DNA of 64,000 nt from positions 6,967,501 to 7,031,500 of the forward strand of contig NC_053042.1 of NCBI RefSeq assembly GCF_003473485.1. Direction: 5' to 3'. This document shows positions 49,273 through 64,000 of the stretch, in pieces (position 1 is the first letter of the stretch; each line of letters begins with the position of its first letter). Made by a program: the position numbers and the translations under genes. Under the pieces are notes generated by a model. The model was not told the DNA's origin and ran no database searches. It was given only the letters and a program-made list of their open reading frames with translations. This stretch comes from Medicago truncatula. Taxonomy: Eukaryota; Streptophyta; Magnoliopsida; Fabales; Fabaceae.

Positions 49273-49558
49273 GGGTTAATAGTGTTTTTCACCCCTGTAA
49301 TATATGTCATTTCTGGTTTTCGCCCATATAAAATTTTCGGTTTGATTTGCATACTCGTAAAATTTTTATTTTCTGGAAAACACCCTTAATAGGCCATTCA
49401 AAAACCAAAATTTCTTGAAAAAAAATTCTGAAAATGGCCTATTAGGGGTGTTTTCCGGAAAATAAAAATTTTACGAGGGTGCAAATCAAACCGAAAATTT
49501 TATAGGGGCGAAAATCAGAAATGACATATATTATAGGGGTGAAAAACACTATTAACCC
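49273..49558. mobile_element. Mutator-like MITE, 286 bp
   Basis: Inverted ends GGGTTAATAGTGTTTTTCAC with arms of about 130 bp. A perfect 9-bp duplication, TATAAACAG, flanks it (49264-49272, 49559-49567). The near-identical arms suggest a recent insertion. No coding capacity. Confidence 0.92.
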
Positions 49559-51643: not shown

Positions 51644-54600
51644 CTAACCTGATTCTTTGCGGTTCGACTTGTGATGTCTCTCTTTCCTATATCTCAACTG
51701 TCCTGGATCAAATCCACCTTCCTCAGCTCCATAGACGGCCCAGGATGGTGTGGCAGCCATGTAATCTTTGCTGTCAAAAGTACTTCCAGAAGCCACCTGA
51801 ATTTAAATTGATGATAAATGTCAGAAACAAAACAACAATCCAAATTCAGTCCAAAGTAATAGGGAAATAAACACCCACCAGATCATGAAATTTATCATAG
51901 TCTATCCATGTATACCACTGGCCATCAATTTTGAACTTCTTAGTTTTTGCCAAGAGGATACAACACGAGTGAACATGCTCACATGCAACTTCATACTCCC
52001 CTTGGCTTTTCAGAGACAGAGCCTCCGAGAAAGCTTTCACGTCGGCATGCCAAGGGACATTTTCCATTGTTAATTTTGATGTAGCAGTCCTGAGAAGAGT
52101 TCATTGTCATTCGAAGATGGTTTTCAATCAAGAATTTAGCTGGACTAAGGGGTAGAGATAGAGAGAGAAGAGGGGGAGACTTACGAGCCACAATATGTAA
52201 CACCCTTGATTTCAATGAAGTCGGGTTCTCCAATACTGAAGAGTTTATAATAAGCATCAATTTCTTCAGCATTCCATCCTTTCACCAGGGTCAGGCGGTA
52301 TACAGTGCGCTGGTGTTTTTCCTTCAGAGCAGTCAAGGAATCCTGGCAAATAGTTATCAAAATACATAGACAATGTGATCAAGAGGACACAGTATCATCA
52401 AACAGTCAAATAAAATCCAGCGCAGTCGCCCCTTCTTCAGATGGCGATCATGCAGTAAAGAGTCCATGATATATGAACTAAACTCTTAACACAAATAAAT
52501 GCATTTCAGCTAGGCTGCTAATCAGAGTAGTTACATACATCATACATCATGAATTCATGATTTGATTATACTTTTCTAGATTTTCACTGACATTGAAAAA
52601 TACTCACAATAAATCTTTCCCAGAAATCTCCAAAGAGTGGTCTATCGATTGCCTTAAGAGAGTCCTTTGTTCCGGCATCTACACTGACATATAACTGCAA
52701 GCAGCAAACAAGAATATTAAGTTTGGCTTGCTTATCCAGCATGTTCAAATTATAAAATTCTGAAAACCTCAAAACCTGGGTGATAGGCTTCAGCAACTTA
52801 ATTTTATCAGGAAATTGTGCATTTGTAACTAGAAAAGTGGAAATCCTCCTTTTGTGCAACTCATCCACAAGTGTGTTTATCTCTGGATACATAATAGGTT
52901 CACCAACAAGAGATAATGCACAATGCCGTGGTGTCATGCCTTCAGTTAATCGCTCCGAGGTGACTCCTACAAAAAGAGTTAAATGAGCCAATTTTGAAAC
53001 TAATTATATGCAGAACGGTTGGTTGTTTTGAAGCTAATCCTCCCAGTATCAGTCAAAATGATATAACGGTGCTGGAGTCCGATTTTACTTATTTATAAAA
53101 ATATTTGCAACTTTGCAATGCCAATATGGAAAACGACATTACAAAATGGGTCAAAATCAAAATCCTAGACAAGATCAGGGAGGGATCACAAATAAATTCA
53201 TAATTTCACAAATAAATTTGACATATATATCGCAATAAATTCATGTATATGCATAACAAATAAATTGTATACTTACTAATTAAATAATATAATACTCCCC
53301 ATAAAAAAAAACGTTTTCTTATTATTTATTTATTTTTTGACCAAAAACATTTTCTTATTATTCATATTTTGTTTATGTGTATGCTTTTCTTAAGTCGCAT
53401 GATCGGTTATTAATTAATTATTGAAAACAAAAAGAAACAAGGAAATGTTGGCGTGTAGCACAAATAGGAAACCACAGCGTTGGACGTGTTTAAGTACTTT
53501 GTGGAAAAGAACAAACTCAAGAATCTATTGAAGTACTTTGTGGATAGTGACAGGCCCGGCCACTGGATAAGACCAGACCAGAATTCAGCACATCAGAGAT
53601 GGATCCTTTCGCCTACCTGGCCTGATTGCAAACATGTGTTTTCTAGTTTGTGAATTCATTTATGCAGAGAGCTATGGGATGAGACTCGATAAAACATTGT
53701 TTACCTCCTCTCAGATGGGCTAACATTTGAGATATTAGATGCACCTGTGTTGTAGAGAGCTACAGCAATTGAGATTTCTTTGGGTTTCAAAAAACCTAAA
53801 CCATTGACATTTTATTTGGAGCACTTTTTTTAATAAAAATACCAATAATTATTGTTTACCTAAAACATAAATTGAAGAACAATTTTTCTATGCACAAATT
53901 TAATACACTGTCACTATCTAGTTTTTTTGATGTGTGAAATTGAGAGATTCTCAAATGGTGCTTTCAATGAGGGAATAACAATGGTTGTCAAACTTAACAC
54001 ATTTCCAACAACAAATATATTGGAAATGCTCAATTATTTGAGGAGGGTTTAAGGCAAAAGAAGAAATAGAGAATTATCCAGATTGAAGAAGGCGAGTCAA
54101 ATGGCAATCCCAACAACACATGTTTTTCATGTCAAACTTGAAGTGGGGAACTCAAAGCAAATATCTACCAAAAACTAGGGGGAGAGAAAAGCTTTAATTT
54201 CATTTTATGATAAAAAATTCATTTATACTTGTTATTTCACAAAAAAAAAAAAACAAGAAGAAGAAAACCCCGGATCAGTTGAATTTCAAGTATTCAATTT
54301 CCATAATAAGGTACTAAGACTTACTTCACATTTGGAATTACACCCAAAAGACTATTTATCTCAAAGGGGTTTACATATAATTCTAGGAAAACGGCAACGA
54401 CTACTGTCTTATTTGTCAAAGAAAAATAAAATACGTTATAAAAAACTAATAAATCACCTCAGATGCAATAACGCCGCCATTATCGATACTGTCGGTGCTT
54501 CAATGTTTAATTCCAACGAATCAGCAGAGATCGTGGTTGTGAGAGAGAAACTGATACATGATCAGAAAACCGCCACAGATAGAATGAAAGACACGATTTT

Positions 54601-57600
54601 GAGAGAAAGTGTAGAAGATATAAAGACTCTAAAGTTGTGGAATCAGAGAATGAGGCAAAAAAAAGAGATAAAAGCTCCGGTTACCGTCTTTGGTAATGCG
54701 AAACGTGATTTCACTTCTCCTACGAGAATTGGTGGCGGCAATAATGTTTCATCCAGGTTGAGAAGTAATATTAATAGTAATAAGATTGAAAAATCGAAAT
54801 TATCTGATCAGCTTTTGAGGAAGGAAATCGAGGAAGATTTCATAGCATGCTTGGGCCGTCAGTCAAGACAAAAGCGGCCTAGAGTTAGTTGCATGTTTTT
54901 CCTTATTAATTAAAAATTATTTTCTCTGACATTGCTTTTTTTAAATCTTTCATTGATTATAAACTCATAATTTGATTTTTTATTTTTCATTTTTCATTTC
55001 AAACTTGAAGTGGGGAACTCAACGCCGCCTTAGATGCACCGACGCCGCCGTTATCGATACTGCTAGTGCTTCAATGTCTAACTCCAACGAATCAACGGAG
55101 ATCGTGGCTGTGAGAGAGAAGCTGATGCATGATCTGAAAATCGCCGTGGATAGAATGGAAGACACGATTTTGAGAGAAGGGAAGAATATACAAAAACTCT
55201 TTTAAGTCGTAGAATCAGGGAAGAATATACAAAAACTCTTTTCATAGCATGCGAAACATTAGTTGCATGTTTTTCCTTATTGATTAAAAATTATTTTCTC
55301 TGACATTGCTTTGTTTAAATCTTTCATTGATTATAAACTCCTAATTTGATTTTTTTTTTTTTTTTGCAGAATGTTTTCCCTGGATTGTGGTTAAGGGAGG
55401 TTAATGCTGAAATGTATGAGGTTCTTGATGCAAATCAAAATAGGAGATCTGCGAAGAGGAACGGGAAAGGGAAGTGTTTTGATGATGAAGAATCGGATTG
55501 AGACTATTTCTGAAAACCTTTGCCTTGGTTGACGGCCCAGCCATGCCATGAAATCTTCCTCGATTTCCTTCCTTGAAAAAGGTGAACAGAAAATTTCGGT
55601 CTTTCAATCTTATTGCTATTAATAATAATTCTCAGCGTTGACGAAACATTATCGCCACTGTCAATTCTCGTCGGAGAAATGAAATCATGTTTCACATTAC
55701 TGAAAACAGTAGTTGGAGCTTTAATCTCTCTTTTTTACCTCATTCTCTGATTCTACGACTTAAAAGAGATTTTGTATATTCTTCCCTTTCTTCTCTCAAA
55801 ATCGTGTCTTCCATTCTATCCGCGGGGATTTTCAGATCATGCATCAGCTTCTCTCTCACAGCCACGATCTCCGTTGATTCGTTGGAGTTAGACATTGAAG
55901 CACTAGCAGTATCGATAATGGCGGTGTCGGTGCATCTAAGGCGGCGTTGAGTTCCCCACTTCAAGTTTGAAATGAAAAACATAGATGTTGTTGGGATTGC
56001 CGTTTGTCTCGCTTTCTTCAACCAGGATAATTCTCTATTTCTTCTTTTGCTCCAAACCCTCGTCAAATAATTTTGAGCATTTCCAACATATCTGTTGTTG
56101 GAAATGCGAGTTTGACAACCATTAAAAATTGCTACTGTTCTCCCTTATTGTAAGGACTATTCTCTCAATATCACACATTAAAAAAATTCGACAGTGTATT
56201 AAATTTGTCCATTTCGTGCATAGATGTTCCAAAATTGTTCCCAATTGATGTTTTAGGTGAACAATAATTGGTAGTATTTTTTATTAATAAAAAAAAAAAG
56301 TAGTGCTCCTAGAAATTTGAAAAGGGGTTTGTCTTTAGGGACAAGATACTTTTTTTCAACTGGAGTATTTAGGGAAAGAGGTAGTGATGAATATAATCAA
56401 ATAAAGGATAAATGATGATCTCATAATAGGAAAAAATCAAATAAGAGAATACTTATGTCAAATGAAAAAATTTACCCTCATTTATTTTTCCCTCAAACTC
56501 CTGCACGCAAACATTATAATCTACAGCTAGAGCTAGTCTCCCGTATGAAACTTACCCTACTTTATGAAAGTGTGCATGTTATGATCTAGAGCTACTCTCG
56601 TTAAATCACTATTAACATATGTAAGTCCATCAACCTGACAACAGTGTTGCAGCGTCAAACTTCTAAAATGATAACAGCAAAGAAAATATAAAATTACCAG
56701 GAACTCCTTTCATTTGTTTAATCATATTTGTATGCTGATCTATTGCAGAATTTACGATCTCTATTGGATCGTCCATCTCCCACACCCAACTTTTCGCTAC
56801 TGGATTTGTGTGATGCCTCCAGCAGAAAACACATTTATTTGCACATGCCAAGCTAGGGGTTGCCTCCATGCACCTATTTCACTCATAAAAGTTGATAAAA
56901 TGAATATATGATAGCTGAGGTGTGATTGCAAACACATAAAGCAGAAGATAAATCCACTTATAACAAGCACCAAAAAAATACTTAATAAAACCCATGAAAT
57001 GATCAAAAGTTGCAGATAATGCAAAAGTACAACAGAAATTATAAATCCAGAACATTCTTCTTCTAAAGCCATGTCAAATACCAACACAAAGTTACTTAAA
57101 AAAAAAAGATACACTCTGTTTCTTCTCTCTTCCTGATTACTTTACAAACTTATTTTCATTCAAATTTAAGTTCAATCCATCAACGATTAAAAACTGTCAC
57201 ACCATCGATGAAACGTACATCGAAAACAAACAAGCTCCATTTTGAGATTTAGGTTTTCATTGGCATAAATAAGGTAATTACAGGATGACATATATTATAA
57301 TAAAGTTGTCCCCGCTAGCACGAAACATAAACGATGTTCAGACCACCAAAACCAAATGCTAATGAAACGTGAACTTAAGTAATTTGTAGAGGAAGTCAAG
57401 TCTCAATTACCTATGACTCTCAATTCCGTAAAATGAATGCTTGTAGCAACCACCTCGACCTCGAAGCTGTGACTTAGTCCATCTACAAATCTTGACACCA
57501 CTGTGTGAACCAATAATCTTATAACCCTGTAAATCGATCATATTTTAAAAACATTACATCTTAAGTAACAAACAGAAAGTTCAATCAATTGACAAAAACT

Positions 57601-58756
57601 GCATATCTAATGTAACAAACAGAAAGTTCAATCAATTGACAATAACTGCATATTTAGCATCACTGTTGGATCACCATAGTAATTTTGCAAAATCCAAACC
57701 AGAGTGTAGCTTTTGCAAAATCACAGTGGGTCATCATAATTCTGACAAACTCACGGTGATGCCAAACAAGTACCAAGTAAGCAAGCAATATCACCATGAT
57801 ACCAAAATCACAATAGCTCTTCTGACAAACTCACTAAATAAGCAATATAAGAAATTGGAATCTAATGCAACGCATATATGAATTACATTACACAAAGTAA
57901 AAATTGAAAAACAATATACCTGCTTCACCAAATTTGCTCTAATAACAGGAGTCACCATTTCTTTCTTTCCATTCAACCTCCCATTACTCTCCTTCACTGT
58001 AGCCACCAACTTCCTTGAAGGAGCTTTACCTGCAATATCTTCTAGATCAACAATCTCCGACTCCGCCTCTTCCTCCTCGTCAGACTCCTCTTCATCGGAA
58101 CTCAAAGCACCACTTTCCTCCTCCCCATTCTCCAAATCACCACCACCATCGTCAACACCTTTCAGCATTCCAACAACCTTCCCACACCACTTCTCAAAAA
58201 CCTCATCCACCTCACCACCATTAACATCTCCTTCCCCCAACGGAATCATCTCATTACCACCCAAAGCCTTCATCCGTTTCACAATCTCCTTACCAACAGC
58301 ATTGAAATTATCACCATAACCTCCACTACCGACACCAAAAACCGCGAATCTACACTTCGACAAAATCAACGAACCAACTCTAAAATCCTCCGAACTCTCC
58401 GCAAGCCAATCAGCGAAGAATTTATACTCCGGCGGTGGTTTACCGTCTTCCCAAGTGGAAGCAACGATAAGGAGAAGCGTTTCCTTAGGGAGATCTTCGG
58501 GTTCGTAGTTTCTGCCATCGATGATGTCGAATGCGAGGTTGTTTGAGGTGAGGAAACGGTGGAGATGGTTAGCGAGGGTTTTGGAAGTGTTGGTTTGAGA
58601 AATGAAGAGAATTTTAGGGTTAGTGTTAGGGTTTTGGGAGTTTAGGGTTAGTTGTTTTAGGTTTCGTAAGCGGCGGGATTTGTAGAAGAAGTAGAAGGTT
58701 GTGGCGGAGAAGAGAGCGAGGAGTGTGAGACGAGCTGGGACTGATGAGAATGGCAT
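51644..58756 (-). CDS. TYW1: tRNA 4-demethylwyosine synthase TYW1
   Basis: Eight exons: 58756-57920, 57526-57411, 56873-56698, 52966-52776, 52694-52608, 52342-52185, 52089-51879 and 51796-51644. Phases agree throughout, giving 642 residues. TYW1 condenses N1-methylguanosine-37 of tRNA-Phe with pyruvate to the tricyclic 4-demethylwyosine, the second step of wybutosine synthesis. Residues 9-25 are a hydrophobic anchor. About 48-198 is a flavodoxin-like FMN domain (SQTNTSKT loop, [12 protein letters not shown]). About 205-240 is an acidic linker. The radical-SAM core follows [20 protein letters not shown], with the 4Fe-4S cysteines C328, C332 and C335 (CANKCVFC) and then [24 protein letters not shown] lies near the end. 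The membrane anchor plus flavodoxin domain suggests an ER-surface enzyme; this is inferred. Intron 3 is 3.7 kb and holds foreign sequence. All key residues are present, so it appears functional. Confidence 0.95.
54155..54463 (+). pseudogene. rps15: plastid-derived rps15 insertion (NUPT)
   Basis: A start at 54207 ([12 protein letters not shown]) and, in another frame from 54272, [10 protein letters not shown], then [20 protein letters not shown] and [14 protein letters not shown] match chloroplast ribosomal protein uS15 almost from its first residue to near its end. A run of 13 A at 54240-54252 separates the two frames, a frameshift typical of nuclear decay of plastid DNA. The last residues of S15 are missing. 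The piece sits inside the left DUF1639-like arm: the other two copies run straight from GGGGAACTCAA into the sequence resuming at 54464, so they show the empty site. There is no transit peptide, so it is not a relocated functional gene. The exact left junction is uncertain by some bases. Confidence 0.85.
54464..55501 (+). pseudogene. DUF1639-like gene fragment, antisense in TYW1 intron 3
   Basis: Two exon-like parts: open frame to 54883 (donor GT at 54884) and 55370-55501 (acceptor AG at 55368-55369), both phase 0 and ending in TGA. The join reads ...QKRPR then [18 protein letters not shown], resembling the plant-specific DUF1639 motif (basic RPR followed by FPGLWL). The rest is polar, with a Ser/Asn-rich part and a VREKL...RMKDTILRE helix. 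The reading frame is continuous at its 5' end with plastid rps15 codons, forming a chimera of about 193 codons before the donor. The native 5' end is lost. The function of DUF1639 proteins is unknown. A diverged copy also lies in its own intron. Whether it is transcribed is unknown. Confidence 0.55.
54960..55265 (+). repeat. second direct copy of the DUF1639-like segment
   Basis: Repeats the [20 protein letters not shown] part and its upstream GGGGAACTCAACGCCGCC, then stops early. It is followed by a repeat of the TTGCATGTTTTTCCTTATT intron segment also found at 54888. It lacks the plastid insertion. Confidence 0.7.
55505..56110 (-). pseudogene. inverted copy of the DUF1639-like segment
   Basis: The minus-strand frame 56066-55740 carries [20 protein letters not shown] and [18 protein letters not shown] before a stop. 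A further frame (55695-55504) continues with the [15 protein letters not shown] part. Reading is interrupted by stop and frame changes. It has the GGGGAACTCAACGCCGCC empty site, no plastid DNA, and no FPGLWL exon. It shares TYW1's strand, so it would lie in TYW1 pre-mRNA in sense orientation. Confidence 0.7.
57563..57655 (-). repeat. tandem duplication in TYW1 intron 1
   Basis: Two units of about 47 bases, each with GTAACAAACAGAAAGTTCAA followed by TCAATTGACAA and AACTGCATAT. They start about 35 bases upstream of exon 2. Confidence 0.85.
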
Positions 58757-58908
58757 GGTAATGGTGATTCGATGATGGTGGAAGTGTGGCGGTGGAAAAC
58801 GCCGTGGGAGGGAAAATGAAGACGAAGAGGGAGTGCTGTTTAGTGGGCTTTAGGTTTTGAAGTTAGAAGCCCGGTTGTTTTGTTAAGGCCTGGTGGGCTT
58901 TAGCAGTC

Positions 58909-62272: not shown

Positions 62273-64000
62273 TCAAACAAACAACTCCGGATACGAGTCC
62301 CTCATCTTACTTTCCAGCTCCCAAGTCAAACTTTCACCAGTTGCTCCGCCCCAAACGACTCTCACCAAGGGTATTTCCTTGCCCCTCAATGCCTTTACTT
62401 TCCGATCATCGATCCTCAACGGCAAAGTCTCAACTGTGAGATTGTCCCGAACCTGTACATCATCTCTCGGAATAACATGTGAAGGATCTGCTACATACTT
62501 CCGAAGTTGTGACACGTGAAACACATCATGCAAGTTCGATAGATGTGGTGGCAAGCCAACTCTATATGCCACCGTTCCGATTCTCTCTGAAATCTGATAC
62601 GGACCAATGAACTTCGGAGTCAACTTTCTCGATTTCAAAGCACGTCCTACACCCGTCATCGGAGTCACTCTTAGAAATACATGATCACCCTCTTGAAACT
62701 CAAGGGCCTTTCTCCGCTTGTCATGGTAACTCTTCTGTCGACTCTGTGACGCTTTCATCTTCTCTCTGATCATCTTGACTTTTTCTGTAGTCTCCTGAAC
62801 CAAATCCGGTCCCAGCACAACACTTTCTCCTGACTCAAACCAACACAACGGAGTCCTGCACCTTCGACCATACAAAGCTTCGAATGGTGCCATTCCTATA
62901 CTCGAGTGATAACTGTTGTTGTAGGTGAACTCTATCAATGGTAGGTGACTATCCCAAGCTCCACCCTGTTCAAGCACACACACTCTCAACAAGTCTTCCA
63001 ATGATTGGATCGTTCTCTCCGACTGACCATCTGTCTGAGGATGATAAGCCGAACTCAGCCTCAACTTCGAACCCAAAGCGTCCTGTAAACTCTTCCAGAA
63101 CCTAGAAGTGAACCTCGGATCCCTATCCGACACAATACTCGAAGGAACTCCATGTAGCTTTACCACACTATGTATATAAATCTCAGCCAACTGAGCTACC
63201 GGATAACTAATGTTGATAGGAATAAAATGTGCCGACTTCGTCAACCTATCAACCACAACCCAAATCGAATCATGTCCCCTCGGAGTGTTTGGTAAACTCG
63301 TCACAAAATCCATAGAAATGCTATCCCATTTCCACTCCGGTACATCCAATGGTGTCAACAATCCTGCAGGTTTCTGGTGTTCAACCTTAGACTTCTGACA
63401 AGTTAAACATGCATACACAAAATGAGCAACATCTCGCTTCAACCCAGACCACCAAAACAGCTTTTTCAAATCATGATACATCTTCGTAGCTCCCGGATGA
63501 ATGCTTAAGCTACTCTTATGACTTTCCTCTAGGATTAACTTTTTCATTTCTTCATTATCAGGAATACAAATTCTACCTCTGAATCTCAACACACCCTGAT
63601 CATCAACCTTGAAGTCACTATCTTCAATACTATTACCAGTAACCATTAGATCAACCAACTTGACATCCACTTGCTGTGCTTCTCGAATACTATTCAGGAA
63701 ATCGCTGTTAATCTTTAGCATCCCCAACTGTATGCTTTGAGGCGACAACTCACACACCAAACTCATGTCTCTAAACTGTTCCAATAAATCAAATTCTTTC
63801 ATCATCATAGCAGACATATGGAGTGTCTTCCTACTCAACGCATCCGCGACTACATTAGCTTTTCCCGGATGGTAATTCAACCCAAAATCATAATCTTTTA
63901 ACAGCTCAAGCCATCTCCTCTGCCTCATATTCAATTCCTTCTGGTCAAACAAATATTTCAAGCTCTTGTGGTCACTGAACACTTCAAATCTGGAACCATA
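62273..64000 (-). CDS. Ty3/gypsy pol: RNase H end, integrase, C-terminal domain (partial)
   Basis: The frame is open from the window edge to the TGA at 62273-62275. It is the C-terminal part of the polyprotein. Numbering from Val at 63982 (position 1 below): 1-52 is the end of RNase H (FSDHKSLKYLF and HPGKANVVADALSR). About 150-200 is the integrase zinc-binding part (two His, then CLTC at 192-195). The catalytic triad is D225 (MDF), D286 (SDRDPRF) and E322 (GQSERT), spaced as DD35E. About 425-500 is the GPY/F-like module (KFIGPYQISERIGTVAYRVGLP). The tail (VRVVWGGATGESLTWELE) resembles the reduced chromodomain of Tekay/Del chromoviruses. No stop or frameshift is seen, so the element may be recent. 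Gag, protease and reverse transcriptase lie outside the window. Confidence 0.93.
   Translation of the reverse strand, partial: YGSRFEVFSDHKSLKYLFDQKELNMRQRRWLELLKDYDFGLNYHPGKANVVADALSRKTLHMSAMMMKEFDLLEQFRDMSLVCELSPQSIQLGMLKINSDFLNSIREAQQVDVKLVDLMVTGNSIEDSDFKVDDQGVLRFRGRICIPDNEEMKKLILEESHKSSLSIHPGATKMYHDLKKLFWWSGLKRDVAHFVYACLTCQKSKVEHQKPAGLLTPLDVPEWKWDSISMDFVTSLPNTPRGHDSIWVVVDRLTKSAHFIPINISYPVAQLAEIYIHSVVKLHGVPSSIVSDRDPRFTSRFWKSLQDALGSKLRLSSAYHPQTDGQSERTIQSLEDLLRVCVLEQGGAWDSHLPLIEFTYNNSYHSSIGMAPFEALYGRRCRTPLCWFESGESVVLGPDLVQETTEKVKMIREKMKASQSRQKSYHDKRRKALEFQEGDHVFLRVTPMTGVGRALKSRKLTPKFIGPYQISERIGTVAYRVGLPPHLSNLHDVFHVSQLRKYVADPSHVIPRDDVQVRDNLTVETLPLRIDDRKVKALRGKEIPLVRVVWGGATGESLTWELESKMRDSYPELFV

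Follow-up and report, generated by a model that had tools for sequence, protein, structure and literature searches.

Organization of the locus

The locus described here lies in a 64,000-nucleotide stretch of Medicago truncatula DNA, in the following termed the window, which comprises bases 6967501–7031500 of contig C1 in a 430-Mb assembly of 42 contigs. Within a predicted intron of a minus-strand gene assigned to TYW1, the window holds three copies (A, B and C) of a remnant related to the protein family DUF1639, and in copy A a fragment of the plastid gene rps15 is embedded in nuclear DNA, the host contig C1 being 56.7 Mb long. In all probability, the locus represents a nuclear plastid DNA insertion (NUPT) of the ordinary kind.

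The insert comprises 298 bp (54159–54456, plus strand) and, as revealed by self-comparison of the window, is present in copy A only. It consists of the spacer upstream of rps15 followed by the first 81 of the 91 rps15 codons, with the reading frame shifted. The flanks of the insert (53825–54158 and 54457–54872) recur inverted at 56292–55944 and 55941–55519 in copy C on the minus strand, and the parts next to the insert (54123–54158 and 54457–54650) recur at 54990–55025 and 55028–55222 in copy B. In both copies the corresponding flanks are situated 2 bp apart (55944/55941 in copy C, 55025/55028 in copy B), and since they adjoin in this way the insertion is specific to copy A. The initial annotation had placed rps15 in one of three copies with an uninterrupted site in the other two, which agrees with copies B and C; the limits it had given, with a start at 54155, are replaced by the tighter limits 54159 and 54456 on the plus strand. 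Reading of the junctions by eye indicates a loss of about 2 bp at the insertion point, and neither a target duplication nor clear microhomology was seen in this reading.

Plastid origin and relatives of the insert

The plastid origin of the rps15 piece, as initially proposed, is borne out by a match to the rps15 region of C42, a plastome-like contig of this assembly; the match covers the upstream non-coding bases as well, shows 95.3% identity (4 mismatches and 10 gap bases) and fixes the junctions at 54159 and 54456. At the protein level, the frame 54179–54910 matches the Pfam family Ribosomal_S15 (E 3e-20), and its best match in the PDB is chloroplast S15 (4v61_AO, E 3.8e-24), which we take to be the spinach protein. 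C42 is 117.5 kb long, with stretches of N, and harbors complete rps15 and ndhH frames, a long ycf1 frame that stays open until a stretch of N and, elsewhere, frames of ycf2, petA, accD, cemA, psbD and psbC, which were read from the first 70 residues of the translations. The rps15 frame of C42 is intact, with 91 codons and a Pfam score of 83.6 bits. A functional relocation of rps15 to the nucleus was considered as well and rejected, since the frame on C42 is complete and the nuclear one is broken.

At least seven other copies of the region were found on chromosomal contigs (two on C1, one on C2, two on C4 and one each on C6 and C7), these counts being lower bounds from which a 35-bp match on C8 was excluded. 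Four of the seven are part of multi-kb plastid stretches with 98.95–99.95% identity to C42, and the remaining three, with 91–95%, are older. The same two bases of the insert delimit its match to all eight sequences, i.e. C42 and the seven chromosomal copies. Separately from the locus studied here, C4:12630500–12639000 (L010) carries 8.1 kb or more of plastid sequence which is 99.95% identical to C42 and hence very recent.

Owing to these other chromosomal copies of the region, the rps15 scrap can be regarded as an ordinary NUPT. The survey by Yoshida et al. (PMC3989485) lists 361 NUPTs with 477.8 kb in total for M. truncatula, and a review (PMC7037861) states that most NUPTs and their mitochondrial counterparts (nuclear mitochondrial DNA insertions, NUMTs) lie in introns or untranslated regions. 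With NUPTs as portrayed in such accounts (e.g. PMC3989485) the locus shares the plastid sequence within nuclear DNA, the sharp junctions, the empty site in duplicates and the decayed frame; only the site differs, namely one of three DUF1639 remnants in a TYW1 intron.

The leader of the insert is 5 bp longer than that of C42, as it is in three of the seven chromosomal copies, and the copy on C2 shares one G with the insert. It is therefore probable that the insert separated from the plastid genome prior to these changes. Four substitutions of the insert are seen in none of the other eight sequences, although one of them, located in the longer leader, is comparable in three sequences only. Substitutions accumulate at about 6.5e-9 per site and year, and at this rate the age of the insert is, as a rough figure, of the order of two million years. 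The same differences bear on the idea of an assembly or sequencing artefact, in which plastid reads were joined into a nuclear contig or the length of the poly-A run was misread. Homopolymer lengths are indeed error-prone, but a chimera assembled from plastid reads ought to agree with the resident plastome, and the insert departs from C42 at 4 positions in addition to indels and has its leader and the G in common with chromosomal copies, which makes such an artefact extremely improbable.

Reading frames across the insert

The rps15 start codon is located at 54207–54209 (plus strand), and its frame ends after 36 codons because a run of 13 adenines (A13; 54241–54253, plus strand) breaks the S15 frame, in agreement with the poly-A frameshift noted before. 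The insert ends two bases past rps15 codon 81, and the last 10 of the 91 codons are absent. In another frame, 244 open codons (54179–54910) lead from S15 into the DUF1639-like stretch. However, the S15 part of this fused frame contains no in-frame ATG; the first methionine codon is at 54503, which is 108 codons into the frame and beyond the insert. The initial description of S15 codons running into the DUF1639-like frame thus holds as regards the openness over 244 codons, with the correction that no start codon lies in the S15 part. A chimera starting from an ATG inside S15 was rejected accordingly.

Trimming of the insert end by 0, 1 or 2 bases results in a joined frame with 0, 12 or 15 stops, respectively. 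Since one junction phase out of three is open, an in-frame join is to be expected by chance in one case of three and gives no indication of selection: the S15/DUF1639 open frame is an accidental phase match. In three paralogous genes on contig C5 (see below), both sides of the insertion point are coding, for which reason the insertion disrupted a host frame rather than extending one; the host frame, defined as DUF1639 coding by these paralogues, runs into a stop after 12 insert codons.

Nuclear exons of organellar origin are known, and the review PMC7037861 reports 45 insertions involved in 49 protein-coding exons of 34 genes from yeast, human, Arabidopsis and rice, so that NUPTs like the present one and NUPT-derived exons as a concept both belong to known kinds. 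At the present locus, a plus-strand transcript spliced from 54883 to 55370 could encode an S15-DUF1639 fusion if slippage at the A13 run or a non-AUG codon provided the start. The 244-codon frame over the junction, the A13 run itself and the plausible donor and acceptor, which were judged by eye and agree with the splice to the FPGLWL exon proposed initially, would fit such a chimeric gene. At the DNA level, however, the suggested coding of a chimeric protein is not supported: the fused frame lacks an ATG before 54503 and the ATG of rps15 belongs to the other frame of 36 codons. In addition, the C-terminal S15 codons are missing and the host fragment is degenerate. With the organelle-derived exons of Noutsos et al. 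2007 (as cited in PMC7037861) the locus has organellar coding sequence in frame with nuclear coding sequence in common; it differs in that the joined frame has no start codon, the host fragment looks degenerate and the transcript is putative. Altogether, a chimeric gene of this kind is very improbable.

As an ordinary NUPT, the insert probably arose from a double-strand break in copy A of the DUF1639 remnant cluster, which is positioned antisense in the TYW1 intron. Repair would have ligated the 298-bp plastid fragment, consisting of the upstream spacer and most of rps15, into the break with a loss of about 2 bp and without target duplication, and thereby cut the remaining host frame. We infer end-joining as the mechanism and the absence of function.

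The DUF1639-like copies and their paralogues

Copy A is composed of an upstream flank (53825–54158, plus strand), which has an inverted counterpart with 78% identity at 55944–56292, and, behind the insert, of a DUF1639-like exon 1 remnant (54457–54883, plus strand) with its own ATG at 54503. A putative intron (54884–55369, plus strand), the splice sites of which were assigned by eye, separates exon 1 from the FPGLWL exon (55370–55501, plus strand). The latter represents the C-terminal part of DUF1639 and is 89% identical, in a 125-bp overlap, to the paralogue located at 25169348 on C5. Embedded in the intron is copy B (54990–55222, plus strand), which displays the uninterrupted site and an exon 1 remnant with an internal deletion. 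A 103-bp stretch occurs twice in this intron (54885–54987 and 55259–55361) with 96% identity, which suggests that a partial duplication enlarged the putative intron of copy A. Copy B resembles copy C in exon 1 (96%) and copy A in the intron (96%). Copy C (55519–56292, minus strand) is inverted and combines the uninterrupted site with a frameshifted exon 1; its intron and exon 2 were not found. A genome search with the upstream flank yielded 4 places, of which three lie in the window and the fourth, on C3, matches over 88 bp (74%); at the sensitivity of this search, no sign of a transposon-like spread was seen.

The single DUF1639 stretches of copy A score 16.2 and 19.4 bits, below the cut-off of 22.2 bits for PF07797. 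Joined in silico, the exons encode a protein of 170 amino acids without stops, which scores 29.4 bits. In the genome, PF07797 was detected at 14 places, all above the cut-off and not including the copies of the window. The nearest relatives at the DNA level are three genes on C5 (25.11–25.17 Mb; loci L026, L027 and L028) with 67–68% identity; a further relative on C6 (L029) shows a 142-bp match (76%) and short protein matches only. For the C5 genes, the frames of exon 1 on their own reach 44.6–53.3 bits for DUF1639. In these genes, where the regions flanking the insertion point are both coding, KWGTQ or a similar motif is followed by the stretch shared with the copies. At the end of their exon 1, KRPR or KRPK precedes seven core codons; this core, of the xVQKQLD type and situated between KRPR and the FPGLWL exon, is found in all three C5 paralogues compared and is missing in copy A.

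Test for constraint on copy A

Copies A and C differ at 76 positions, 60 of which are located within the coding stretch 54503–54872. These differences were polarised with the C5 paralogues, which excluded 7 of the 60; as the outgroups are just 67–68% alike, polarity is rough, and only substitutions were counted, with indels left out. On the A branch, 15 of 24 changes are nonsynonymous and 9 synonymous; in the absence of constraint, a ratio of about 73:27 is expected (p 0.17 for an excess of synonymous changes). The 29 changes on the C branch comprise 17 nonsynonymous, 2 stop and 10 synonymous changes (p 0.23 against the unconstrained expectation). The ratio of nonsynonymous to synonymous changes in copy A does not differ from that in the frameshifted copy C (p 1.0). 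Purifying selection on copy A is thus not detectable by this ratio on 54503–54872, and copy A is, judged from its sequence, best read as a decaying remnant.

Several points weigh against this reading and against that of the locus as a NUPT without function. Exon 1 of copy A is open from its own ATG and its spliced product exceeds the DUF1639 cut-off; copy C, unlike copy A, has acquired frameshifts and two stop changes. As regards stop changes alone, 0.83 are expected among 24 changes, so that the openness of copy A comes close to an even chance. Weak constraint on copy A may exist, with indels outside the count. Moreover, C42 is the putative plastome, regarded as such on account of its gene content.

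Some of these points would also suit an expressed small DUF1639-like gene with its start at 54503, to which the NUPT contributed only a new 5' leader or promoter region. Such a gene would be in line with the 170-residue spliced frame above the Pfam cut-off, with the similarity of exon 2 to the C5 paralogue and with the share of changes that fall on third positions, which is 13 of 24 on the A branch and 10 of 29 on the C branch. However, this bias in position is not significant (Fisher p 0.17), the branches do not differ in their ratio of nonsynonymous to synonymous changes, copy A has lost the seven core codons and the insert severs it from its N-terminal part, which renders an expressed gene quite unlikely.

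Inverted repeat of copies B and C

Copies B and C are arranged as an inverted repeat (54990–55979, minus strand), which, if transcribed, is predicted to give rise to a long hairpin in the TYW1 pre-mRNA. The arms (54990–55222 and 55743–55979) have 233 and 237 nt and are 95.8% alike; their alignment of 237 columns contains 6 mismatches and 4 gap bases, and a core of 190 nt has 98% identity. For RNA of the TYW1 strand (54988–55981), the predicted fold has an energy of −524.6 kcal/mol compared with a mean of −230.9 (sd 7.95) for 20 shuffled sequences, none of which was as low (z −36.9).

This structure raises the possibility of a small-RNA locus, in which the hairpin would be transcribed, diced and give rise to small RNAs acting on the DUF1639 paralogues on C5, with the NUPT outside the stem as a bystander. 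The likeness of the arms and the strength of the fold are consistent with this idea, as is the finding that 6 of the 213 21-mers of arm B match the exon 1 frame of L027, and 4 of them that of L028, with one mismatch or none. It would also conform to the inverted-duplication model of plant microRNA birth, for which PMC3237417 mentions one Arabidopsis microRNA gene over two adjacent inverted paralogous pseudogenes. The origin of MIRNA genes described there (Allen et al. 2004, as described in PMC3237417) has adjacent inverted fragment copies, surviving paralogues and a strong predicted hairpin in common with the present repeat, which differs in its position within an intron of an unrelated gene, in the distance of about 520 nt between its arms and in being a candidate source of small RNAs only. 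On the other hand, the matches are what descent alone gives and consequently show only the possibility of a small-RNA role, and L026 has none (0 of 213). Shuffled arms came within 4–6 mismatches at best (three trials against 18 loci, three of which are the same C5 genes again), and DUF1639 loci outside the C5 cluster, with 4 or more mismatches to the arm 21-mers, do no better; the C6 locus has 3. A scan of 53000–57000 against Rfam gave no matches. Taken together, this renders a small-RNA locus rather doubtful.

The TYW1 host gene and other features of the window

The host gene is read on the minus strand from a flavodoxin exon (57794–58849; Pfam Flavodoxin_1, E 1.8e-25), an exon without family match (57410–57526) and a CxxxCxxC exon recognized by eye (56696–56872) to a radical SAM stretch (within 52587–53003) and two Wyosine_form exons (52184–52342, E 3.8e-5; 51849–52100, E 5.2e-14). 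The whole cluster of copies is located in an intron of about 3.7 kb (about 52968–56695, minus strand), with donor and acceptor assigned by eye; together with the flanking minus-strand exons, these support the antisense position in a TYW1 intron that had been proposed initially. The Flavodoxin_1 and Wyosine_form exons exceed the family cut-offs, and two Radical_SAM matches remain under theirs (17.5 and 18.2 against 29.5). The gene is therefore designated TYW1 on the strength of its predicted flavodoxin and wyosine domains and of motifs which are presumably typical of TYW1. Among the papers listed on TYW1 in combination with Medicago truncatula and on DUF1639, nothing on this locus was noticed. 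Work on almond miR398b and DUF1639 (PMC4890778, PMC8438446) and PMC12572781 did not enter the evidence.

Outside the host gene, an inverted repeat with 126-nt arms of 94% identity, 34 nt apart (49273–49558), resembles a miniature inverted-repeat transposable element or a hairpin. An open frame of 575 codons (62276–64000, minus strand) shows, by eye, a resemblance to retrotransposon RNase H and integrase of the Ty3 type. Positions 1–24000 contain several families of direct repeats, many about 18–19 kb apart, which suggests a duplicated segment or a gene cluster.

Implications

That a reading frame stays open across the junction of a NUPT is to be expected in one of three phases and has little meaning without a start codon. 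With two empty-site copies within 1.5 kb, which fix both junctions almost to the base, the locus represents a clean example of a NUPT. It is unlikely, judged from the DNA, that the remnants constitute a young small-RNA locus in the pre-mRNA of a tRNA-modification gene, capable of producing 21-nt RNAs with one mismatch to two of the C5 paralogues. If this were true, the presence of the plastid insert would indicate that the third copy, next to the repeat, is dispensable, and if the repeat yields small RNAs, it would represent an early stage in the birth of a small-RNA gene nested in an intron.

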